Source: an uncultured Caryophanales bacterium (GTDB lineage Bacteria; Bacillota_I; Bacilli_A; Acholeplasmatales; Anaeroplasmataceae). From it: a stretch of DNA of 64,000 nucleotides. Positions within the stretch are counted from its first letter, which is position 1, and every line of letters starts with the position of its first letter. Location of the stretch: assembly GCA_946405105.1 (NCBI GenBank), contig CAMJFY010000003.1, positions 1 to 64,000 on the forward strand, in the 5' to 3' direction. Below are positions 46,016-61,834 of the stretch, in pieces. The translations under genes were made by a program, and so were the position numbers. The notes beneath the pieces were generated by a model. That model was given only the letters and a program-made list of their open reading frames with translations. It was not told the DNA's origin and made no database searches.

Positions 46016-47116
46016 ATGAAGGGACTATATATTCATATTCCATTTTGTGATAGAATTTGCAATTATTGTGATTTCACTAAAATGGTATCAAATGACAATG
46101 TAAAAACTAAATACCTAAAGCGTCTTAAAGAAGAACTTAAATATAGAGAAAAAGATTTATGCGATATTGATACTGTATTTATTGGCGGAGGTACTCCAAA
46201 TTCCCTTTCTATTGAATTATTAGATGATTTACTTAAAACTATAGGGGACTTTATTAAAAAATCAAAGGAAGCCACAATAGAGCTTAATCCAGAACTAATT
46301 ACTATAGAACAAATAGAGCTATTTAAAAAATATGGAATCAATAGAATATCTTTAGGTGTTGAATCTTTTAATAATGAATTACTAAAGCTACTTGGTAGAG
46401 GACATACTAAAGAGATTGTATATGATAGAATTAAGCTACTTCGAGATAATGGATTTAAAAACATTAATATAGATTTAATTTTTGGTATACCTGGAGAAAC
46501 AATTGATGATGTTAAATATGATTTAGAATGCTTTAAAGAATTAAATTTAGAACATCTATCATATTATAGCCTTATCTTAGAAGATAAAACTGTATTCTCA
46601 TATATGCTAAATAATAAAAAGCTTGAATTATTAGATGATGATATAGTTGCTGATATGTATGATTATATAAATGATTATTTAAAAAATAATGGCTATAAGC
46701 ATTATGAAATATCTAATTATGCAAAGAATGGTTATGAATCTATTCATAATAAGCTATATTGGACAGAAAGCCATTATGTAGGTATAGGCCTTGGGGCATC
46801 AGGATATATTGATAATTATAGATATACAAATCAAAAAATAATGAAGGATTATTTATTAGAATTTGAGGATATAAGAGATATTATATCTCTTGATGAAGAA
46901 AAATCTGAATATTTAATATTTGGATTAAGAAAGATAGATGGTATATCTATTTCTGATTACAAAGAAAGATATAATAGTGATCTATTCACTGATTTTAAAA
47001 TAGATGAATTAATTGAAAATAAATTATTAATTGTTGATGGAGATTATTTAAAAATAGCTCCTGATAAATTATTTATTTCCAATTTAGTATTTGAGGAGCT
47101 TTTAAATGAAGGATAA
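46016..47116 (+). CDS. hemW: HemW-like radical SAM protein (annotated as oxygen-independent coproporphyrinogen III oxidase)
   Basis: 366 aa. The radical SAM cluster motif CDRICNYC has C11, C15 and C18. Further motifs are VFIGGGTPN, ELNPELI, GINRISLGVESF and FGIPGETIDD. HemW-type proteins bind heme and deliver it, whereas true HemN has an extra N-terminal region with a fourth conserved cysteine, which is absent here. Overlaps the Xer gene by 11 bp. Confidence 0.88.
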   Translation: MKGLYIHIPFCDRICNYCDFTKMVSNDNVKTKYLKRLKEELKYREKDLCDIDTVFIGGGTPNSLSIELLDDLLKTIGDFIKKSKEATIELNPELITIEQIELFKKYGINRISLGVESFNNELLKLLGRGHTKEIVYDRIKLLRDNGFKNINIDLIFGIPGETIDDVKYDLECFKELNLEHLSYYSLILEDKTVFSYMLNNKKLELLDDDIVADMYDYINDYLKNNGYKHYEISNYAKNGYESIHNKLYWTESHYVGIGLGASGYIDNYRYTNQKIMKDYLLEFEDIRDIISLDEEKSEYLIFGLRKIDGISISDYKERYNSDLFTDFKIDELIENKLLIVDGDYLKIAPDKLFISNLVFEELLNEG

Positions 47117-48032
47117 AGAAAAAAAGGAAATAGTATTTTATGAAATATCAGAATTTAAATACTATTTAGAAGACAATTTAAGATTAAGTGAAAATACTAT
47201 TAATGCTTATGTTACTGATTTATATCAATATCAAGATTTCTTAAATAAATTTGAAAAGATAAATGATGTATCTGAAATAACTAGAGAAGATATTGTAAAA
47301 TATATAGCTTCCTTAAAAAGGAAGGAATTATCTAAAAAGACAATAGCAAGAAAGGTTACATGCATTAAAGATTTTCATAAATATTTATTTAAAGAAGGCT
47401 ATACAAAAGAAAATGTATCACTTCATATTGAAAATCCAAAGACTGATAAAAGTCTTCCAGTGGTATTAACTATTGAAGAAATTAATAGAATGATTTCATC
47501 AATAGATGGTAATGAACCATTAGATATTAGAAATAGAGCAATGATGGAAACATTATATGCTACAGGTATGAGAATATCTGAGCTATTAGATGTTGAATTA
47601 AAGGATCTTCATTTAAATGAAAAATATATTATGGTCATTGGAAAGGGTAATAAGGAAAGACAGGTGCCACTTGGTGAAATGGCTGTAATAGCTATAAGAA
47701 AATATATTGAAAGAGCAAGATTAAAGATTGCTAGTAAGCCATCTAATTTATTGTTTTTTAATTATAAGGGTGAAAAGATGTCTAGACAGGGCTTTTTTAA
47801 ATATATTAAAAAGCTAGCTCAGGAATGTGGTATTGAAAAAGAAATATCACCACATACTATTAGACATAGCTTTGCTACACATTTATTGGAAGGAGGAACA
47901 GATTTGAGGGTTGTACAAGAGCTTTTAGGGCATGAAGATATATCTACGACACAAATATATACTCATATAGATAAAACTAAATTGAGAGATATTTATGATC
48001 ATAGTCATCCTCTATCTAAAAATGACGATTAA
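47106..48032 (+). CDS. xerD: Tyrosine recombinase XerC/XerD-like
   Basis: 308 aa. N-terminal SAM-like core-binding domain (about 12-105) and catalytic domain with Arg156 (ATGMRISELL), a beta-hairpin lysine near 180-183 (GKGNKERQ), His250 and Arg253 (HTIRHSFATHLL), His276 (LLGHED) and nucleophile Tyr285 (IYTHID). Such enzymes resolve chromosome dimers at dif, and a dif-like site lies 3.6 kb downstream. The length is typical of chromosomal Xer proteins rather than phage integrases. C versus D cannot be decided here. Confidence 0.9.
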   Translation: MKDKEKKEIVFYEISEFKYYLEDNLRLSENTINAYVTDLYQYQDFLNKFEKINDVSEITREDIVKYIASLKRKELSKKTIARKVTCIKDFHKYLFKEGYTKENVSLHIENPKTDKSLPVVLTIEEINRMISSIDGNEPLDIRNRAMMETLYATGMRISELLDVELKDLHLNEKYIMVIGKGNKERQVPLGEMAVIAIRKYIERARLKIASKPSNLLFFNYKGEKMSRQGFFKYIKKLAQECGIEKEISPHTIRHSFATHLLEGGTDLRVVQELLGHEDISTTQIYTHIDKTKLRDIYDHSHPLSKNDD

Positions 48033-50451: not shown

Positions 50452-50490
50452 AAAAAAATTTCAAATCGTATCTAGTGTGTAAAACTAGAT
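50452..50490 (+). repeat. Terminus hairpin element, copy 1 (pointing right)
   Basis: A-rich tract, TTTC, 7 bases, ATCTAGT (50470-50476), 7-base loop, ACTAGAT (50484-50490): perfect 7-bp stem. Confidence 0.8.
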
Positions 50491-51045
50491 TAAGTATTAA
50501 AACAAGTTAGAAACTAGAATAATTAAAATGATTTCATAGACAATGTAAAACTAGATTATCACTAAAATTGTCAAAAAATGAAAACTAACATTTTGTTGTG
50601 AAAAAACGAGAAAAAATTAAAGGGAGATATACGTCTCGTTTTATGGCCATTTTTAGTCGAAAATTGTTCCTATAATAGCATAGCTATGAAATGACTGATT
50701 CGTAATGCTAAATTGACTTGATTCGATTTGTCGAATGCTCTGACGTCACTCGCACGTGAGAAACAGTCTGTTTTGAAAATCATAGTTAGTGATAAAAAAA
50801 TCTCAGTGAAGAGGAAGAAGAGGTCTTGAAAAATTAGATGGAAATATTCACTCAAATGATTTTGGAAAAAATAGCCAGATGAAGAACTCGAGATTTTTTT
50901 CTTAGAGGATCTAGATTTCGTTAGAGCATGGTTTCTTTGGAGCTGATAGTAAAGAGACAAAGACAATGAATTGGTGTATCTAAAACAAAAACAAATTTGT
51001 CAAAACTTGAATCCGTTAATAAAGCATGCTAAAAGGGAAGGATAA

Positions 51046-51084
51046 GAAAAAATTTCGAAACGCATCTAGTTTTCAATACTAGAT
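51046..51084 (+). repeat. Terminus hairpin element, copy 2 (pointing right)
   Basis: A-tract, TTTC, 7 bases, ATCTAGT (51064-51070), 7-base loop, ACTAGAT (51078-51084): perfect stem. Confidence 0.8.
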
Positions 51085-51178
51085 AGAAAGAGAAAAATCG
51101 AGATAAATTTTTATCTATTTTCATAAGCCCAAATGATCATCAGAAATCAAGTATCAATTATAGGAGGAAGTAGGGACT

Positions 51179-51220
51179 AGAAAAAAATTTCGAATTGTAT
51201 CTAGTTTCAAATACTAGATA
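51179..51220 (+). repeat. Terminus hairpin element, copy 3 (pointing right)
   Basis: A-tract, TTTC, 7 bases, ATCTAGT (51199-51205), 7-base loop, ACTAGAT (51213-51219). The stem extends to 8 bp with flanking T and A. Confidence 0.8.
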
Positions 51221-51665
51221 AGAGAATGTTAATGTTATAAATTGTATATTATTATAATATTATATATTATTATTAAATACATTATATATGTAATAATTGA
51301 AAACTATGAAAATAGAGATATAGGATTAAAAATGTAGTCAGAGTGGTGGAAAGTAGACAGCTAAAAATGGCCTAAAAAATGAAGCGGCGCTACTAAAACA
51401 CACTCTTTTTTTCGTTTTGAATACGTTTAAAGTCGATTTTTGAAAATGAACATGTCCATTTTGAGTATTATAGAGTGATTTGAACGAGTGAAACGACTCT
51501 CCAAAATGATTCCAAATGGGCAATTATGCATCAATCGACTTCTGGATCGCTTTTTAAGTCAAAAATAGGTATTTTCGACCCATTTTTAAGCGATATAAGG
51601 AGATGTGTACAAATCCACTTATTCACAAATGATTAAAAAACCGCATAGTTAAGCCATAATTCATT

Positions 51666-51693
51666 GGTTAACATAATATATATTATGATAACT
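51666..51693. other. dif: dif-like XerC/XerD recombination site
   Basis: Arm GGTTAACATAA (51666-51676), 6-bp centre TATATA, arm TTATGATAACT (51683-51693): exactly the 11-6-11 layout of dif. The arms are imperfect inverted repeats (9 of 11). From memory of the E. coli site (GGTGCGCATAA, TGTATA, TTATGTTAAAT), 22 of 28 positions agree. The inner CATAA and TTATG, the most conserved Xer contacts, are intact. It lies where transcription converges from both sides, 3.6 kb from a xer gene. Confidence 0.82.
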
Positions 51694-52163
51694 TATTAAG
51701 ATTTCAAAAGATGCCTTAAAAAGCTTCTTTTCATCCAAAAAAACGTGTTTGAATATCTAATTTGACGATTTTAAGCCGTTTTTTGACCTCTAATCACGCT
51801 CAGTGAATACCATTTGAATATGTTTAGCAGGAGAGCCTAAAAAAATCGAAAAATCGAGAAAATTGGATTTGGATAATTCTCTACTTCGACCGATTTCCTC
51901 TTCTGGATTTGAAACGAGACTTTTTGATTCATGTCACCAGATTTTAAACGGCGACGGAATCTTGATCAGTTCTTCTACTACTTCTACTCTCCTGGATGCC
52001 TATTTTGAAATTGAATAAGTAAAAAAAAGGCCTTTTCGGCCCTATATTTTTCCTATTTCTTTAAAATCGATAAATTTTACCTCATTTTTAGCTATTTTTT
52101 ATCCATATATTTATCATATTATTTTAGATATATTTATTATATTTTTGAATTATTATTTAATAA

Positions 52164-52209
52164 TGACATTATTTATGTAAGAATAATATTAATGACATAA
52201 ATAGTGTCA
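52164..52209. repeat. Large inverted repeat TGACATTATTTATGT
   Basis: TGACATTATTTATGT (52164-52178) and its reverse complement with one mismatch (52195-52209) enclose 16 bases. An identical third copy is at 52351-52365. Function unknown; could be protein-binding sites. Confidence 0.65.
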
Positions 52210-52263
52210 CATAATTCAAAAGCGATATTTTTTGTGTATTTTCGCCATTGTTCTGTGAAATTT

Positions 52264-52383
52264 AAAGCGTTTTCATAGTTTTTCATATTTTCACATAATT
52301 TTCATAATTTTCTATAATTTCATTTTCATTCACACATTTCTTTAATATAATGACATTATTTATGTATAAAATGAAAACGCTTT
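52264..52383. repeat. 13-bp inverted repeat AAAGCGTTTTCAT/ATGAAAACGCTTT, cre-like
   Basis: AAAGCGTTTTCAT at 52264-52276 and its exact reverse complement at 52371-52383. Each resembles a catabolite-response element (TGAAAACGCTTT core). Between them are several TTTTCAT repeats and one TGACATTATTTATGT. No gene starts nearby in an orientation that would make a normal cre useful. Confidence 0.55.
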
Positions 52384-52442
52384 GATTTTTTCATATTTTC
52401 GATTATTTTTAAAATTTCTTTATTTTGTTCGTGATTTAAAAA

Positions 52443-52476
52443 CAAAAAAATAGGCAACTTTTTATAGCTGCCTATT
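52443..52476 (-). terminator. Terminator of the Fic-like gene
   Basis: AATAGGCA and TGCCTATT pair around a 12-base loop and overlap the stop codon. On the minus strand T7 follows. Confidence 0.85.
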
Positions 52477-53545
52477 CTTCTATCATATCAAAAATATTAA
52501 TTTGTTTATCTCTTCTAGATAGATCGTTATTACCAACTAGCTTAGTCCATGTAGCTGATCTACCAGTTCCATTTGAGATAATTTTGCCACTTTCTTTTAA
52601 GTCATTTAATGCTCTATTAATAGTCGAATCTGACATATATGGGCATAAAGTTTTGATATCTTCTTTTGTAAAATTTTGTCCTAAAGATAGTATTGCAGAT
52701 GCGGCTGCATCGACTTTACTGATCTTAATATCCTTGTTGTATCTTGAATCTTGAGTCATATTTTCAACGCTTTGATAGCCTTCAATCATCAAATTAATGA
52801 TCTCGTTGTTTAATAATGAAGTGTCTGAAAAGCCTTCTTTATAGCCGAAATTTGCCTTTGCAATAGCCATATTAAATTCTTCCATTTTGTTTGTATATAA
52901 TTCGAAGTAACTTACGTATTTGAATACGTTAAAACGCTGACTTACTAACAAACAGTAGGTAATTAATATCGCCATAAACCTGTTGTGTTCAGTAAAATAT
53001 TGTTGATTTATTAGGTCTGTAAAGAACTTTGTAATGACCTGAGTTGACTCGATTTTACGCTTAAATGCTCTTGCCATAAGTCTAATTAATTCATTAAAAT
53101 CGTCTCTTCTAGAGACTCTTTTATCCTCACTTAGGAAGCCGTGGTTCTCTTTTACAATGTATGATGTAAAACCGAATTTTTTATCCTCAAAAATCTTATT
53201 TCCAAGCTGTAAAAATTCATTCGCATCTAGGATTAAATCTGTGCCCATTTCTTGGATTAGCTTAAACACAATTTTTAGATTTAAGACTATTTTTTCATCC
53301 TTTGTTTTTGGATTTGAATCCTTCCTAATCAGTAACTTTAGTCTTGCATCTGTAACATGTAATTCAAGCATTTTTGATGCAAAGATTACATCTCTTTCTA
53401 CTGTATCAGATACAATCCCTTTCATGAAGTTCTTTAAAATTTCTTCGTAATAAAAATCTTTTCCCTTGTATGTGTAAAGCTTGGTAAGGTTACTTACAAG
53501 CTCATTTGTGTATAAAGTATTGTCTACAGTTTTGATACATTCCAT
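52472..53545 (-). CDS. Degenerate Fic-like protein with C-terminal winged helix
   Basis: 357 aa. The middle region, helix RRDDFNELIRLMARAFKRK then INQQYFTEHNRFMAILITYCLLVSQRFNVFKYVSYFELY, has the layout of a Fic core. Where the catalytic HPFxxGNGR should stand it reads YFTEHNRFM, so AMP-transfer is unlikely. Residues about 280-340 (AAASAILSLGQNFTKEDIKTLCPYMSDSTINRALNDLKESGKIISNGTGRSATW) are a convincing winged helix-turn-helix. GGTGGTGAT precedes the ATG. A DNA-binding regulator or terminus protein is inference from its position. The Fic link is tentative. Confidence 0.55.
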   Translation of the reverse strand: MECIKTVDNTLYTNELVSNLTKLYTYKGKDFYYEEILKNFMKGIVSDTVERDVIFASKMLELHVTDARLKLLIRKDSNPKTKDEKIVLNLKIVFKLIQEMGTDLILDANEFLQLGNKIFEDKKFGFTSYIVKENHGFLSEDKRVSRRDDFNELIRLMARAFKRKIESTQVITKFFTDLINQQYFTEHNRFMAILITYCLLVSQRFNVFKYVSYFELYTNKMEEFNMAIAKANFGYKEGFSDTSLLNNEIINLMIEGYQSVENMTQDSRYNKDIKISKVDAAASAILSLGQNFTKEDIKTLCPYMSDSTINRALNDLKESGKIISNGTGRSATWTKLVGNNDLSRRDKQINIFDMIEE

Positions 53546-53573
53546 TAAAATATCACCACCAAAATCACCTAGA

Positions 53574-53619
53574 ATTATAACAAAAAAACATAGTCATTTC
53601 AAACGTTTTGACTATGTTT
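53574..53619 (-). promoter_or_regulatory. Promoter overlapped by a long inverted repeat before the Fic-like gene
   Basis: Minus strand: TTGAAA and TATAAT with a 17-bp spacer. AAACATAGTCA and TGACTATGTTT (53586-53596, 53609-53619) form an 11-bp inverted repeat covering the -35 and spacer, with AAACGTTT in the centre. It could be an autoregulatory operator. As it has T-tracts on both sides, it might instead be a terminator. Confidence 0.55.
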
Positions 53620-53695
53620 TTTGAAAAATCTCTCTAATATGCTTTTATTCTTGTCTTGCTATAGAAGGCGGTTTATTTACTGATATTTCTCCAAA

Positions 53696-53728
53696 AATGA
53701 AAAATACAGGCAATTTCGGCCTGTATTT
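53696..53728 (-). terminator. Terminator of the TGS-uridine kinase gene
   Basis: AAATACAGGC and GCCTGTATTT around a 7-base loop; on the minus strand a T-rich tract follows. Confidence 0.88.
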
Positions 53729-55376
53729 AGCGTTTATCTTCAGTATAGAAAATCGAACCTCCGATGAATTCTCTTAATATCGAATTACATGGAATCCATT
53801 TATCTGAAATACTTTCATAGTATTCAAGCAATAATAATAGTCTTCTAGCAGTTATATAATACTGTGAATCTGGCTTGATTTCCTTTAGAGCTGGGATAGC
53901 ATGTTTAGCTAATACTAAAGGCTCATAAGCAAGCTCTGAATTGAATACTACATCAGCATTATTTTGGTATCTATAGATCCATTTAAATTCTCCTGCTCTA
54001 ACTGATTGCCATGATGCAATTGTCTGCTCAGGAGGTGTATTTCTATTTTCTCTATCTCTTACCATTCTTCTTACTAGTCTCATATCAGACAATGAAATTG
54101 GTGTATGGTCATCAACTCTATATTGTCCTAATGGGGCTATAAATATTTTATATTTATTCTCAAGTGGGATTGATGGACATATAGCATCATCTAATCCGTG
54201 GATACCTTCAATTAAAATTGGCTGTCTTGAATCAATCTTAATTGGTTTACCAAATGTTCTTTTCTTAGTTTTAAAATTGAATTTTGGAAGAGCAACCTCT
54301 TCTCCATGTATAAGTCTGAATATTACATCATCAAATAGTTCTAGATCTAGAGCGTTTAGATGCTCGTAATCATATCTTCCTTTTTCGTCTAAAGGATATT
54401 TAGATGGATCGTCAAAATAGAAATCATCCATTGATATCATCAATGGAACTATACCTCTGGCATATAATTCTATTCTGATTCTATTAGTAAATGTTGTCTT
54501 ACCACTAGATGATGGTCCGGCAACACAAATTAATCTTAATCTTTCTACTTCTTTGAATATTTTTCGTCCAATTTCAGCTATCTGATCGTTATGTCTTGTT
54601 TCACAAATGTTTATTAGTTCTAATGCTCTACCATTTCTAACCATTCCATTTATCTGATTAATTGTGTTAATTTTGATGATATTACTCCAGTAATTTGCTT
54701 CACGTAATACATCTCTAAATACCTTTTCTTCATTGAAATCAGGGATTTCTCCCTTAGATTCTGATCTAGGATAGAAAATTAAGAATCCAGGTGAATAAAG
54801 TCTTAACTTAAATTTAGTGATAAATCCAGTTGAAGGTAATGAATAATCATATAAGAAATCATAATAACCATCACATTCTGTGATAGGTATTTTCTCTATA
54901 GGAACATTTTTAATCATTTCTAGCTTATCATAGAAGCTTTGCTTCTTATAAATTTTCATTGCTTCTTCCTTCGATACAAGAGTATCGTGTATAGGAAGAT
55001 CATCTTTGATTATTTTGATTACTTCATTTTCTAGTCTTTTTAGATTTTCAGGTCCAAATGAATGTCCAAAATGAGATATTGAACAGAATATTGATCTAGA
55101 AATACTGTAATTGAATAACGCTCTAGCTGCTGGCCATAATCTTTTTATAGCCATCGCAATGACATATCTTAGAGTCGAAACATACATTTTTACTGCTCGA
55201 ACGTCACTTAAATCGAGTAATTCTACTATCGAATTGTCTTCTGGAATGTAGTTTAAATCCTTAATTTGGTTATTAACTTTTGCACAAATATAACGTCTAT
55301 TTTTGTTCTCAATAATGTCCGAAATTCGTTGTGGTTGAGCCATTTCTAGCACTTTTCCACCTATTGTAATTTTCAT
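53727..55376 (-). CDS. TGS-domain uridine kinase-family protein
   Basis: 549 aa. An N-terminal TGS domain (1-60: MKITIGGKVLEMAQPQRISDI) is followed by a segment like the second domain of ThrRS/AlaRS, but without its HxxxH zinc motif. From about residue 265 there is a uridine kinase with P-loop GPSSSGKTT, DDFYFDDPSKYP, EHLNALD, ILIEGIHGLDD and MRLVRRMVRDRENRN. The frame extends 72 bp upstream, but GGTGGTG stands before the ATG at 55376, and the longer version would run into a terminus repeat. Likely phosphorylates a nucleoside; the role of the TGS part is unknown. Confidence 0.88.
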   Translation of the reverse strand: MKITIGGKVLEMAQPQRISDIIENKNRRYICAKVNNQIKDLNYIPEDNSIVELLDLSDVRAVKMYVSTLRYVIAMAIKRLWPAARALFNYSISRSIFCSISHFGHSFGPENLKRLENEVIKIIKDDLPIHDTLVSKEEAMKIYKKQSFYDKLEMIKNVPIEKIPITECDGYYDFLYDYSLPSTGFITKFKLRLYSPGFLIFYPRSESKGEIPDFNEEKVFRDVLREANYWSNIIKINTINQINGMVRNGRALELINICETRHNDQIAEIGRKIFKEVERLRLICVAGPSSSGKTTFTNRIRIELYARGIVPLMISMDDFYFDDPSKYPLDEKGRYDYEHLNALDLELFDDVIFRLIHGEEVALPKFNFKTKKRTFGKPIKIDSRQPILIEGIHGLDDAICPSIPLENKYKIFIAPLGQYRVDDHTPISLSDMRLVRRMVRDRENRNTPPEQTIASWQSVRAGEFKWIYRYQNNADVVFNSELAYEPLVLAKHAIPALKEIKPDSQYYITARRLLLLLEYYESISDKWIPCNSILREFIGGSIFYTEDKR

Positions 55377-55454
55377 AGTTTTCACCACCAAAAATTTATT
55401 TTTCAAATTAAATCTAGTTTTAAAAATAAAATATGCGAATATAAACACAATAAA

Positions 55455-55498
55455 ATCTTGTTTAAAAAACTAGATAGGTTTTGAAATTTATTTTTTTA
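55455..55498 (-). repeat. Terminus hairpin element, copy 4 (pointing left)
   Basis: On the minus strand: A-rich tract, TTTC, 7 bases, ATCTAGT, 7-base loop, ACAAGAT. One mismatch in the second arm. Confidence 0.65.
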
Positions 55499-55645
55499 CC
55501 CTTTTTATACCCTTGTTTTATTGTATCTATTTATATAATTATACCATGAAAATGAAATATTTTCAATTTTTCAAGAGTCTCATAAATTATAAAGACTAGA
55601 AACTATAATATATTAAATTAAATGTGAATATAAATATATTATTAG

Positions 55646-55688
55646 ATATGGTATTTAAAACTAGATAGACTCCGAAATATTTTTTTTG
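55646..55688 (-). repeat. Terminus hairpin element, copy 5 (pointing left)
   Basis: On the minus strand: A-tract, TTTC, 7 bases, ATCTAGT (55660-55666), 7-base loop, then ACCATAT with two mismatches to the consensus arm. Confidence 0.6.
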
Positions 55689-55904
55689 ATCCTCTATAAA
55701 GTGCCTAGCTATGCCACTTTTTTACATATTATTCTGGATGAAATCACCTTTTTATCTGAATATAAATTGTTCTGTATAAGTAAATTATTTACTATTTAAA
55801 TATTATTGATAATATTTATTCTTCTATTTTTTATTTTTATAGATCATATTCAAATTTTGCTATCTATTTTTAAAAATTACAAAGTATAATGTAATTATAT
55901 TAAT

Positions 55905-55945
55905 ATCTAGTAAATCAAACTAGATACCTACTCGAAATGTTTTAA
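55905..55945 (-). repeat. Terminus hairpin element, copy 6 (pointing left)
   Basis: On the minus strand: TTTC (55934-55937), 8 bases, ATCTAGT, 7-base loop, ACTAGAT. Perfect stem, 8 bp with flanking bases. Confidence 0.75.
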
Positions 55946-56093: not shown

Positions 56094-56990
56094 TTAATTT
56101 TCTTCAGAATCTCCAGCATCATAAGTTGCTTTATATGATTCTTCTTCCTTTTTCTTTTCATCATCAAATTCTTCAATTGATGCATCATCATCAAGTAATT
56201 GTTCATCTTGAGCTTCCTCAGCTTCTTCAGCAGGCTCTTCATAATCAACTACCTCATCCTCATCTGTGATTTCATTTGGATCAATTGGGTTACCAAATTC
56301 ATCAACATATTGGATTTCCTCTTCCTGAGGCTGTAATGTTTCAGAATTTTCTAACTGTCTTACAAGCTCATCTGGATCTAGGAATGATGATAATTCAGAA
56401 TCAAGGTCGAAGTCATACTTATATTGCTGAGCATCTTGTTGTTGTTGCTCAGTAATATTTTGCATAGCATTCTCTAATGCTTGGTTGTTAATATCATCTT
56501 CGTAATCTAGTACTCTGTCTTTTAATCTAAAGTAAGCTAGATTTACCTTTCTAAATACATAAATTTTCTTTGTAGGATTTAATGAGAAGCTTAAGAATCT
56601 TTTCTTTCTTTGTCTTCCGATTACTTTACCAATAATATCTTCCTTATGTATAATGTGATATTCCTTTTCATGATCACCAGCTACATAGATATTCATATCT
56701 TTAAATTTTATAATACGTCTGATGAAATATTCATCATGAGTTTTATATAAAACTAAATCCTTTTTCTCTAATCTTTGAGGTGTTCTAATATGAGCATAAT
56801 CTCCAACCCTCAAAAGTGGCTTATTCATGTCATCTTCAATTTTTAAGGTTCCGATTAGACCATGTGTTACTCTATCTAGAACAATATCGAGTCCGTTGAC
56901 GTCAAGTTTTTCTTCGACTTCCTCAACCTCTTCTTTTTCTTCAACTTGTTCTAGTAACTCAGGGCCTTCAACTCTTTGAAATTTTCTCAT
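56094..56990 (-). CDS. S24/S26 (signal peptidase/LexA-like) domain protein with acidic tail, probably inactive
   Basis: 298 aa. Residues about 50-130 follow the S26 beta-fold: PLLRVGDYAHIRTPQRLEKKDLVLYKTHDEYFIRRIIKFKDMNIYVAGDHEKEYHIIHKEDIIGKVIG. The usual nucleophile motif S-M-x-P is missing (THGLIGTL there), and the general base Lys or His of the KR/HR pair is replaced by Arg (FIRRII). No membrane anchor is seen. A Gln-rich stretch and a roughly 110-residue acidic tail (Glu/Asp) follow. GGGGAC precedes the ATG. Function unknown. Confidence 0.6.
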   Translation of the reverse strand: MRKFQRVEGPELLEQVEEKEEVEEVEEKLDVNGLDIVLDRVTHGLIGTLKIEDDMNKPLLRVGDYAHIRTPQRLEKKDLVLYKTHDEYFIRRIIKFKDMNIYVAGDHEKEYHIIHKEDIIGKVIGRQRKKRFLSFSLNPTKKIYVFRKVNLAYFRLKDRVLDYEDDINNQALENAMQNITEQQQQDAQQYKYDFDLDSELSSFLDPDELVRQLENSETLQPQEEEIQYVDEFGNPIDPNEITDEDEVVDYEEPAEEAEEAQDEQLLDDDASIEEFDDEKKKEEESYKATYDAGDSEEN

Positions 56991-57176: not shown

Positions 57177-57199
57177 AATAGGCGTTATTTTCGCCTATT
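57177..57199 (-). terminator. Terminator of parE-parC
   Basis: AATAGGCG and CGCCTATT with a 7-base loop, overlapping the parC TAG codon; on the minus strand T5 follows. Confidence 0.88.
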
Positions 57200-59906
57200 C
57201 CTCATCAAATAAAGATATTTTCTTATATTTTATCTCTTTTTTTTCTTCATTTTCTGATTCATCAATTGAATCATCAATTTTTTTGCCTGTCTCTTTAGCT
57301 AGGATTGCATCTAACTCATCAAATATGCCTTGTGATGAAGCTTTCTTAGCTGTAACGATAGGAGTTTCCTCCTCGATACCAAAGTCATCTGTAAATAGGT
57401 CATGCTTAACTTCAACTAGATATTCAGGTGATACTACATCATCTGGCTTAGATGGCTCTGGTAATACCATGCCAACTAATTCCTTTAATGTATTATCAGC
57501 TGGAGTTAATTGCTTACCAGCATCTGAAACATTATATTTTAGGTTGAATGCATCAATTGAATCAGATCCATTCTTATACATTAATGAAATCTTTACATTC
57601 TCTTTGTATTGGTTTGGAGTCATCTTTTTAGCATCAATTAATAGATATGGATTTGATTTTAATTTCTTAATAACTGGGTTTCCTGATCTTGAACGCTTAG
57701 TTAATAAGACATCAGTAACCTTCATTCTCTTAATTGTTTGTCTGTTAGTTAATAATAAGAAGTCATCATTCTTATTACAATATACTACAGATACAACCTC
57801 ATCACCATTCTTTAAATTGATAGATTTAACTCCACCAGCATTAGTTCCATATAATGAAATATCAGTTGCTCTAAAGCGTAGAGCTTCAGCATTTTTTGTA
57901 AATACCATTATTTCAAGTGGGTCCTTAATCATATCTACAGATACAAGCTCATCGTCATTACATTTCATTGCTCTAACTGGCTTAATATATCTTTGTAGCT
58001 GGAAGCCACTTAATAATGTTTGCTTCATTATACCCTTCTTAGTAGCTAATACTAATGAATATGGCTCATTGAAATTAGATATTGAGAATACAGCAACAAA
58101 TTTTTCATTTGCTGATGTAGATACTAATGTTGATATGAATGTACCAACCTCTTTGAATTTAGCCTCTGGAATCTTAAATACTGGAAGGTAAATGAAGTTT
58201 CCTAGGTTAGTAAAGATTAATAATGTATCTAGAGTAGAAACCTCTTTTAGGAATAATACTGAATCATTTTCCTTTAAGCCATTTGATTTGGCAGCATTAT
58301 ATGCTTTAAGGTTTGCTCGCTTTAGGTATCCTTCCTTAGATACAGATACCATTGTTTGTTCTTTAGAGATTAAATCTGTTTCATCAATCTTGATAGATTG
58401 AACCTCATCAACAATTTCTGTTCTTCTTGGAACAACTAAATTCTTATTTACCTCAGCTAACTCATGCTTAATGACTTTTAATAATTCCTTTTCAGAAGAT
58501 AAAATCTTGTTGTATTCTAAAATGTTATTATTTAGAGTTACATTTTCTTCTTGAAGTGCCATTATATCTTGATGAGATAATGAGTATAAACGCATCATAA
58601 CGATAGCCTCAGCCTGTTCAGGTGAGAATTCGAATTCTTTTACTAAGTTATCGATAGAGTCTTGCTTATTCTTACTATGTCTGATGATTGCGATAACTTC
58701 ATCAGTTACATCTAGCATTTTGATTAAGCCTTCTACGATGTGTAATCTCTTTTTAGCTTTCTTTAAATCGAAATTAGTTCTATTTGTAACTACATCCTTT
58801 TGATGCTCAATATAAGCATCTAATATTGGTAATACACCAAGTCTCATTGGACGCTTATTACAAATAGCTACCATATTATAATTACAGTTTGTTTGTAATT
58901 CAGTGTTCTTAAAGAAGAAATTAATGATTGCGTCTACATTGGCATCCTTCTTTAAATCAATTGCGATTCTTAGACCATCTCTACCTGATTCATCTCTTAC
59001 CTCGATTACATCAGGTACCTTACCATCCATTCTTAGCTGTTCCATCTTTTTAACTGTTTGTGATTTAAAGATATCATAAGGAATTTCTGTGATGACAATT
59101 CTCTTTTGTCCATCCTTATTCATATCTTCGATTTCATATTTACTTCTTATACAAACACTTCCAGATCCTGTTAGGAATGCTTCTCTAATGGCATCTCTAC
59201 CCATTACGATACCACCAGTAGGGAAGTCTGGACCAGGCATAATTTCAAGTAGGTCATCTACGGTCATATTAGGGTTATTAATTCTTTCAATTGTAGCATT
59301 AATAACTTCGTTAATATTATGTGTTGGAATATATGTTGCATAACCTGAAGAAATACCCATACTACCATTAACTAATAGATTTGGGAATCTTGCAGGTAAA
59401 ACTGTAGGCTCTACCTCTTCGTCATCGAAGTTTGGAACGAATGGTACAGTTTGTTTTTCAATATCCTCTAATAGATATTCTGAATTCTTAGATAATCTAA
59501 TTTCAGTATAACGCATTGCGGCTGGACCATCACCATCGATTGAACCGTTATTACCGTGCATATCGATAAGTGGAACACCCATTTTCCACTTTTGTGACAT
59601 ACGAACTAATGCTTCATAAATAGATGAGTCACCATGAGGGTGGTATTTACCCATAACCTCACCGACGATTCTTGCTGATTTTTTATATGGAGCATTTGCT
59701 GTAACCTTTAATGCATTCATACCATAAAGGATACGTCTTTGAACTGGCTTTAAACCATCTCTAATATCTGGGATAGCACGCTCTTGGATGATATATTTAG
59801 AATATCTACCAAATCTATCACCTAGTGCTTCCTCTAATTTTAATTCTTCAAATTTTTCAGCTAGGAAAATATCAAGCTTCTTCTTTAATGTTTCTTGCTT
59901 CGCCAT
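57195..59906 (-). CDS. parC: DNA topoisomerase IV subunit A
   Basis: 903 aa. Cleaves and rejoins DNA to unlink sister chromosomes. The winged-helix/tower part has [18 protein letters not shown] and the catalytic Tyr133 in [11 protein letters not shown]. The quinolone-region residues Ser94 and Glu98 are wild type. The C-terminal beta-pinwheel (about 500-820) lacks the gyrase GyrA box and an acidic/lysine-rich tail follows. It begins 2 bp after parE in the same operon. Confidence 0.97.
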
Positions 59907-59908
59907 GA

Positions 59909-61834
59909 TTATTCTCCTTCCTCAAGAGTGAATTGAACGTGATTTTCTAGCCACTCTCTTCTTCGATTTGCATCGCTACCCATTAGTACTTCAATTTGAT
60001 TTTCAGCTTCTGCCTCATCATCAATGCTTACCTTTACTAATGTTCTTGTCTCTGGGTTCATAGTTGTTTCCCATAATTGCTCTGCATTCATTTCACCAAG
60101 ACCTTTGTATCTTTGTAAAATTGTAGGACAATTACATGAAGCTAAAATCTTATCCTTTTCTTCATTAGTCCATGCATAAACGATTTCTTCTTTCTTACCT
60201 CTCTTTGTAATCTTAAATAGTGGTGGAAGGGCTAAATATATTCTTCCATCCTCTACTAGAGGCTTCATATATCTAAAGAAGAATGTTAATAATAATACCT
60301 GAATATGGGCACCATCATCATCGGCATCGGTCATGATTATAATCTTTTTATAATTACATTTCTTTAAATCAAAATTTGTTCCATAATCAGCACCGATTGT
60401 ATAAATCATTGTTGCGATTTCTTCATTCTTTAATGCTGATTCAGCAGTTGCCTTTTCAGTATTTAATACTTTACCTCTTAGAGGTAGGATTGCTTGGAAT
60501 CTTCTATCTCTACCTTGCTTAGCTGATCCACCGGCAGAATCACCCTCTACAAGATATAATTCATTTATTTCCTTGTTCTTTTCACTTGTTGGAGCTAGCT
60601 TATCAGAAATATTCTTTTCGCCTTTATCCTTTTTATCCATACGAGCTTGCTCACGAGCTTTTCTAGCTGCGGCACGTGATTCAGCTTCCTTTAATGCTTT
60701 CTTAACAAGCTGTTCAGATAAATCCTTATTTTCAACTAAGAAATAGCCTAGCTTCTCTGAAATTACAGCATCTACTGCAGTCTTGGCAGCTGGAGTACCT
60801 AGTTTTCCTTTTGTTTGGCCTTCAAATTCTAGTAATTTTTCACCAATTCTAACAGATACTACTGCAGTCATACCAGCTCTAATATCAGTTCCTTCTAGCT
60901 GTACATTATCTTTAATTAATCTCATCTTATGAGCATAATCATTAAATGCCTTAGTTAAAGCTGCTTTAAAGCCTGTTTCATGGCTACCACCATCGTTTGT
61001 CTTAACGTTGTTAACGAATGAAACGATAGTTTCAGAATATGAATCGATAAATTGAAGAGCTACCTCAACCTCGATTTCATCTTTTGAATCAGGTAGCTTA
61101 TATGTTCCATCAAAATATGCAACATTATGAAGAGGCTTTTTACCTGTTGTCATAAATGCTACATATTCAGAGATACCATTCTCATATAAGAATTCATCTT
61201 TTTTATTATTTCTTCTATCCTTTAAGACAATCTTTAAATTTTTAATTAAAAAAGCAGATTCTCTTAATCTAGTTTTAATTGTTTCATATTGATAAACTGT
61301 TGTTGTAAAGATTTGAGGATCTGGTTTGAATGTTACTGTTGTACCAGTTCTTCTTGTATCACCTAAAATTTCTACCTTAGAAACCTTAGTTCCACCATCC
61401 TCAAATTTAATTTGATGGATTTTACCCTCTCTATAAGATGTAACCATCATGTAAGTTGATAATGCGTTTACTACTGATGCACCTACACCATGTAGACCAC
61501 CAGATGTCTTATAGCTTGAACCACCGAACTTACCACCAGCATTAAGCTTAGTGTAAATAATTTCCATTGTGTTCTTACCAGTTTGGTGCATACCACAAGG
61601 TACACCACGTCCATTATCCTCAACAGTGATGGAATTATCTTCATTAATTGTAACAATAATCTCTCTACCAAATCCTGCAAGAGCCTCATCGATTGCGTTA
61701 TCAACAATCTCCCATACAAGGTGATGTAAACCACGTTCATCAGTTGAACCGATATACATACCAGGACGCTTTCTAACGTGCTCAAGACCTTCAAGGACTG
61801 TTATGGAGTCATCATTATATGTATTTGCTGCCAA
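59909..61834 (-). CDS. parE: DNA topoisomerase IV subunit B
   Basis: 641 aa ATPase subunit. GHKL motifs [24 protein letters not shown] and [14 protein letters not shown]. The toprim domain has [35 protein letters not shown], the [15 protein letters not shown] wording being that of ParE rather than GyrB, and [12 protein letters not shown]. The start is a TTG at 61834, seven bases after AGGAGG; no ATG is available nearby. First gene of parE-parC. Confidence 0.97.

Follow-up and report, generated by a model that had tools for sequence, protein, structure and literature searches.

A polar array of palindromic elements around dif in an uncultured Caryophanales bacterium and its relatives, and a neighbouring pseudo-Fic protein as candidate binder

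Introduction

What polar palindromic elements do on both sides of dif, and which protein binds them, are the questions raised by a 64,000-nucleotide stretch of DNA from an uncultured Caryophanales bacterium of the Anaeroplasmataceae, a gut inhabitant (contig CAMJFY010000003.1, positions 1 to 64,000, assembly GCA_946405105.1), which is called "the window" below. The dif site is the spot where chromosome copying ends and the sister chromosomes are parted. A sequence-only reading of the window had described three elements to the left and three to the right of dif, in opposite orientation, and had proposed that they are sites of a terminus-specific protein, acting as a polar fork trap, as an organiser or in translocase guidance. 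The answer that appears most likely to us, with a probability of about 0.4, is a compact fork trap centred on dif, for which the product of a gene next to dif, termed pseudo-Fic here, would be the leading candidate binder.

Galli (2019) reports tus and rtp in four clades only (PMC6549158), and therefore the question of unrelated fork traps in other bacteria stands. In the present lineage, which has no RTP match, a conserved polar array surrounds dif and a candidate protein can be named, and so this question becomes directly testable. The array may represent a previously unknown way of ending chromosome replication.

The polar array in the window

The elements and dif have the following positions (scores are those of the profile described below):

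50452..50490, plus strand: left polar element 1; palindrome 50470-50490, A-tract and TTTC flank, 41.9 bits
51046..51084, plus strand: left polar element 2; palindrome 51064-51084, 43.4 bits
51179..51219, plus strand: left polar element 3, innermost on the left; palindrome 51199-51219, 44.1 bits
51665..51694, plus strand: dif, TGGTTAACATAATATATATTATGATAACTT; common to relatives near the same gene, single copy in the own genome
55388..55432, plus strand: weak, opposite-facing partner element; palindrome 55412-55432, 27.8 bits, 43 bp from right element 1
55455..55499, minus strand: right polar element 1; palindrome 55455-55475 with one arm mismatch, 41.5 bits
55646..55690, minus strand: right polar element 2; palindrome 55646-55666 with two arm mismatches, 39.4 bits
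55905..55945, minus strand: right polar element 3; exact palindrome 55905-55925, poor A-tract, 25.6 bits

A check of the sequence and the profile scores confirmed the six elements of the sequence-only reading, in position as well as in orientation. Four of the six carry the exact palindrome ATCTAGT-N7-ACTAGAT (at 50470, 51064, 51199 and 55905), and the flank of TTTC and A-tract lies leftward in the three left elements and rightward in the three right elements. The element at 55905 scores 25.6 bits, in comparison to 39-44 bits for the other five. The claim that the window contains no further copy held only in part: besides these sites the profile scan of the 64 kb returned no match above 12 bits, but it did uncover a seventh, weaker site at 55412 on the plus strand, which shares its 43-bp spacing class with pairs in relatives. 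The bare palindrome with up to three mismatches is found 10 times in the window versus 6.8 times expected, and 13 of 100 shuffles reach 10, which is chance level. The signal owes its strength to the exact copies, to the polar flank and to the relatives. This locus is the only place with the exact palindrome in the own genome, which has 34 contigs and is 91% complete.

Conservation of the array in related genomes

Training data for the profile were 127 short sequence windows taken at 17 dif loci in the genus of the window (g1). Some of these read one palindrome twice, in mirror image, and therefore only the genera g12-g17 count as independent. Sites had to reach at least 20 bits, with overlapping readings merged to the better one, and the threshold for pairs was 14 bits. 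At 20 dif loci of these six other genera the profile found 99 sites, and 91 of them face dif as predicted (45 left-plus and 46 right-minus, versus 7 left-minus and one right-plus). Zero sites were present at 16 control loci (289 kb, mostly of other families). When the training genus is included (38 loci), 181 of 209 sites have the predicted orientation, and all 209 lie at most 5 kb from dif, although the scanned stretches mostly extend 7-10 kb each way; block-shuffled sequence of five times the length of these loci yielded none. Polarity about dif is seen in seven genera, in g17 by one site only; of course, related genomes are not independent events.

Searches with the polar pattern were compared with a reversed control. 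Allowing three mismatches, 23 of 27 genomes of the genus match, with 106 hits on both strands versus 16 for the control; allowing one mismatch, 33 of 55 family genomes match, versus none of the 55 for the control. Run over all 55 genomes in full, the fixed pattern gave 56 hits on contigs with dif. Of these, 53 are correctly oriented, one of the other three reads a correct site in mirror image, and 54 of the 56 lie within 5 kb of dif. The array thus recurs at dif in related genera, close matches are found nearly all at dif, and scattering without orientation bias was not seen, a few exceptions discussed below apart. The proposal of the sequence-only reading that the elements are sites of a terminus-specific DNA-binding protein, with an orientation that turns at dif, is well supported by this comparison of genera; the sites may act as a fork trap, as an organiser or in translocase guidance.

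In other families the array was not recovered in this form. At 12 loci of f7, f9, f12 and f19 no profile match of at least 14 bits was found within 8 kb of dif (13 loci were scanned, and dif was unmatched in one); a few other repeated pairs are present. Searches for generic hairpins and repeats in f2 and f5 gave no repeated polar hairpin. Separately, the locus L082 (G024, f2) has repeats containing AGCAATCGA near dif, where the ATCTAGT array was not found. Three genomes of f5 have a single exact ATCTAGT-N7-ACTAGAT away from dif and without the TTTC flank (G037:C1:1555087, G030:C8:3843 and G035:C6:3179; loci L092, L093 and L095); their contexts are similar, with TATCA(C/T)GTTA or alike following.

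The polarity turn and phased pairs

Left sites are present in 34 loci, and the innermost of them is 176-916 bp away from dif. On the right, the distance from dif to the innermost site is 328-1199 bp in 16 of the 38 loci, with the site between dif and the pseudo-Fic gene in 15 of these, and 3.3-4.7 kb, past this gene, in 21 loci including the window. These 16 loci thereby narrow the turn of polarity to within 1.2 kb of dif, while the bracket in the window is wider (51219-55455). In those loci that tell the two apart, polarity thus turns at dif and not at the gene. In addition, the sites of genome G023 stay polar around dif though the pseudo-Fic gene sits on another contig. Nearly all sites (208 of 209) are outside open reading frames (ORFs) of at least 120 amino acids.

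Many sites form pairs. Among convergent pairs (at least 14 bits, within 120 bp; n = 36) the spacing is 42-46 bp in 19, 64-66 bp in 16 and 114 bp in one, and thus the spacings step by about two helical turns; by the same thresholds 5 divergent and 10 tandem pairs were found. The stronger member is the one away from dif in 28 of 35 pairs. Such phasing would be expected of proteins that cooperate along the same face of the helix.

A pseudo-Fic protein encoded next to dif

52472..53545, minus strand: pseudo-Fic gene, 357 amino acids; Fic fold, no HPFxxGNGR, winged-helix-like C-terminal domain, tail QINIF

The end of this gene is at most 2.3 kb from dif in 41 of 43 family genomes; no distance could be given for G023, which has the gene on another contig, and for G059, in which no dif was found, and a weak match in G020 was excluded. 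The Fic fold was assigned by comparison at the level of structure (a re-examined Foldseek ranking, the sole fold comparison). In sequence searches, the Fic family of Pfam matches 3 of 34 members weakly (best E-value 0.0017), NCBIfam and Pfam gave weak matches only, PADLOC gave no match, and a contig search with the single pseudo-Fic protein returned 42 candidate stretches with no relative among them. The catalytic motif HxFx(D/E)GNGR is absent from all 34 members and from all 32 class relatives, and it is present in all nine Fic relatives that were compared, which were hand-picked from a larger number of weak matches.

The C-terminal Q-tails of the 34 members, counted without a chance control, are of the strict type QLxLF in 8, of any type QxxxF in 27 and of the type QxxI(D/E) in 4, and 3 have none; by a likewise uncontrolled count, 17 of 32 class relatives have a tail of either type. 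The tail in the window, QINIF, is a loose motif of the clamp-binding type, and it may bind the sliding clamp. The protein is found in 104 of 296 genomes of the class (32 of these 104 were examined), and it is thus more widely spread than the array. Taken together, pseudo-Fic looks like a dead Fic enzyme that has been remade into a DNA-binding protein linked to replication. If true, it would be unusual for a member of the Fic family to be adapted to chromosome biology in this way. Literature linking a Fic protein with the chromosome and dif, or on replication termination in Acholeplasma, was not found in a search that had most subscription journals outside its reach. For Acholeplasma and dif this search gave a paper that, judging by its title, concerns periodic motifs, and the titles listed for replication in Anaeroplasma have no bearing on the array.

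The gene neighbourhood of dif

47106..48032, plus strand: xerD recombinase gene; TIGR02225 above cut-off
57195..59906, minus strand: parC, topoisomerase IV subunit A; TIGR01061 above cut-off
59909..61834, minus strand: parE, topoisomerase IV subunit B; TIGR01058 above cut-off

The dif site of the window is surrounded by xerD, deoB and the topoisomerase IV genes, and the gene order around dif is similar in other families, as judged by eye from ORF starts and lengths. Between the kinase gene and parC, a protein encoded at 56094-56990 has a weak peptidase S24-like match below the Pfam cut-off, an acidic C-terminus and no NCBIfam match. A second dyad, TGACATTATTTATGT, is found between dif and the pseudo-Fic gene, at 52164-52178 and 52351-52365 on the plus strand and at 52195-52209 on the minus strand. 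With at most two mismatches, it is present in most loci of the genus at +346 to +1600 from dif, mostly on the plus strand; at two loci of g12 and four of g15 it is found on the opposite strand instead, at -267 to -342.

The cumulative GC skew of the window and the next 20 kb (L075) peaks at 51490, 175 bp from dif. In a comparison that excluded loci with less than 5 kb on either side, this peak lies at most 1 kb from dif at 21 of the 28 array-bearing loci and at 11 of the 17 array-less ones. Loci of both kinds are thus alike, and the peak was rejected as support for a fork trap.

Proposed mechanism and alternative explanations

In the mechanism that we propose, the elements would be binding sites of a dimeric protein with the palindrome as core, and the flank of A-tract and TTTC would lend each site its direction. 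The array spans a few kb with dif at its centre, flanks outward and palindromes inward. Forks coming from the origin would reach the sites from the flank side and pass, while a fork that has run past dif would meet the next array palindrome-first and be stopped, so that the forks would fuse at or near dif. The candidate binder would be the pseudo-Fic product, with its winged-helix-like domain and a tail that possibly hooks the sliding clamp. The genome comparison speaks well for a protein bound to the array; that this protein is pseudo-Fic, that its tail binds the clamp and that forks are stopped is what we infer. It is possible, but tentative, that this is an independently evolved termination system, in which a clamp-tethered dead Fic protein and the array fix the place of fork fusion and hand the terminus to XerCD and topoisomerase IV.

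Several observations weigh against a compact fork trap bound by pseudo-Fic, beginning with the GC skew, which does not discriminate loci with and without the array. As to the sites, 28 of 209 face the wrong way, many of them partners in phased pairs; four of 38 loci have no left site (two of these have less than 130 bp left of dif) and one has no right site; and f4 has two diverged copies, on one side only. Away from dif, 9 of 65 close pattern hits, including the exact copy of G011 on a contig of 247 kb, are on contigs where no dif was found, and their orientation was left unscored; lone elements that face correctly lie outside the compact array, 18 and 15 kb from dif (G060:C14:4922 and G065:C22:8993); and single bare palindromes, exact and without the flank, are present in G015 and in five genomes of f3 and f5. 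As to the protein, the strict tail is found in just 8 of 34 members, and the tail is absent from three members, all of f2, and from 15 of 32 class relatives (f9, f12, f19 and f23). Where the gene and dif of f3 genomes share a contig, 18-285 kb separate them. In f2, f5, f7 and f9 the gene is linked to dif where no array was found, and therefore pseudo-Fic can play some part at dif without these sites.

This linkage in array-less families, together with the independence of the array from the gene in G023, would fit a fork trap or terminus organiser that is bound by a protein encoded elsewhere, with pseudo-Fic as a dif neighbour in a separate role. We regard this as unlikely, since no other DNA-binding candidate was recognised among the eight window proteins around dif, the rest of the genome being unscreened. 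The array might also serve late segregation and not fork arrest, with sites that hold XerCD, SMC, topoisomerase IV or a DNA translocase in place or in check at dif; they could, for instance, be polar stop sites of a translocase or dif accessory sites. This explanation is doubtful, yet it deserves to be taken seriously, because 16 of 38 loci bracket the turn close to dif, the genes xerD and parC/parE lie nearby, and the sites of G023 remain with dif while the pseudo-Fic gene does not. On the other hand, the sites extend over several kb, unlike plasmid accessory sites, and they are unlike the FtsK orienting polar sequences (KOPS) and have no genome-wide spread.

The right sites of the window are upstream of a uridine-kinase-like gene, and in G054 three right sites are upstream of the pseudo-Fic gene, as would be expected of transcription operators of the kinase, pseudo-Fic or other genes of the dif area. 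However, the left sites of the window sit in a stretch where two genes end facing each other and that holds only dif besides, the right sites of G045 are not at the kinase, and orientation tracks dif, which makes operators very improbable. A function of the hairpins as transcription terminators was rejected on the sequence alone, as the stems are A+T-rich and no T-run follows. Least credible to us are remains of a mobile repeat similar to repetitive extragenic palindromes and bacterial interspersed mosaic elements (REP/BIME) or to miniature inverted-repeat transposable elements. The polar hairpin, the conserved TTTC and the inverted pairs of fixed spacing are indeed REP/BIME-like, but REP/BIME occur in many dispersed copies, whereas the exact palindrome is confined to the dif locus in the own genome, and copies in relatives are nearly all at dif with polarity about it in the seven genera. 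A Y1 transposase profile is unmatched in the own genome and in 25 of 55 family genomes, and matched in the other 30. Ends of a mobile element, which the sequence-only reading had named as an outcome that would speak against its proposal, are disfavoured by this confinement and by the missing transposase match in the own genome.

Comparison with known systems

RTP is a winged-helix protein. Its profile (PF02334) matched the control, Bacillus subtilis, and none of the 55 family genomes. RTP is reported to bind polar terminus sites as a dimer, and a ter site of B. subtilis is located in the promoter of its own gene (PMC10331603). The array has in common with RTP/Ter that polar sites are oppositely oriented on both sides of the terminus, and the autogenous ter has a likeness here only in G054, with its sites upstream of the pseudo-Fic gene. 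In contrast to RTP/Ter, the candidate has a Fic fold, the sites are mostly at most 5 kb from dif, and a strong and a weak site that form a pair are distinct from each other, at a distance of 42-46 or 64-66 bp; the sequence of the element is presumably unlike that of B. subtilis Ter. Tus binds as a monomer (PMC10331603), and tus has been reported only in gammaproteobacteria (PMC6549158). The array resembles Tus/ter in its polar sites flanking the terminus and differs in the palindromic core, compared to the Tus monomer; for the window protein Pfam gave no match to Tus, while the genomes were not searched for Tus.

The matS sites are non-polar over a wide region, and KOPS are genome-wide and not palindromic. 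MatP/matS and KOPS/FtsK are likewise terminus-related DNA motifs, but the array is polar, palindromic and local, and the 54 of 56 hits within 5 kb on dif contigs are at odds with the wide spread expected of matS. Such confinement to about 5 kb on either side of dif is more in keeping with a fork trap or a dif accessory system than with matS or KOPS. With Fic/DOC proteins (8uqu) pseudo-Fic shares the fold but not the catalytic motif. Among the known kinds of systems, the array would be nearest to a fork trap.

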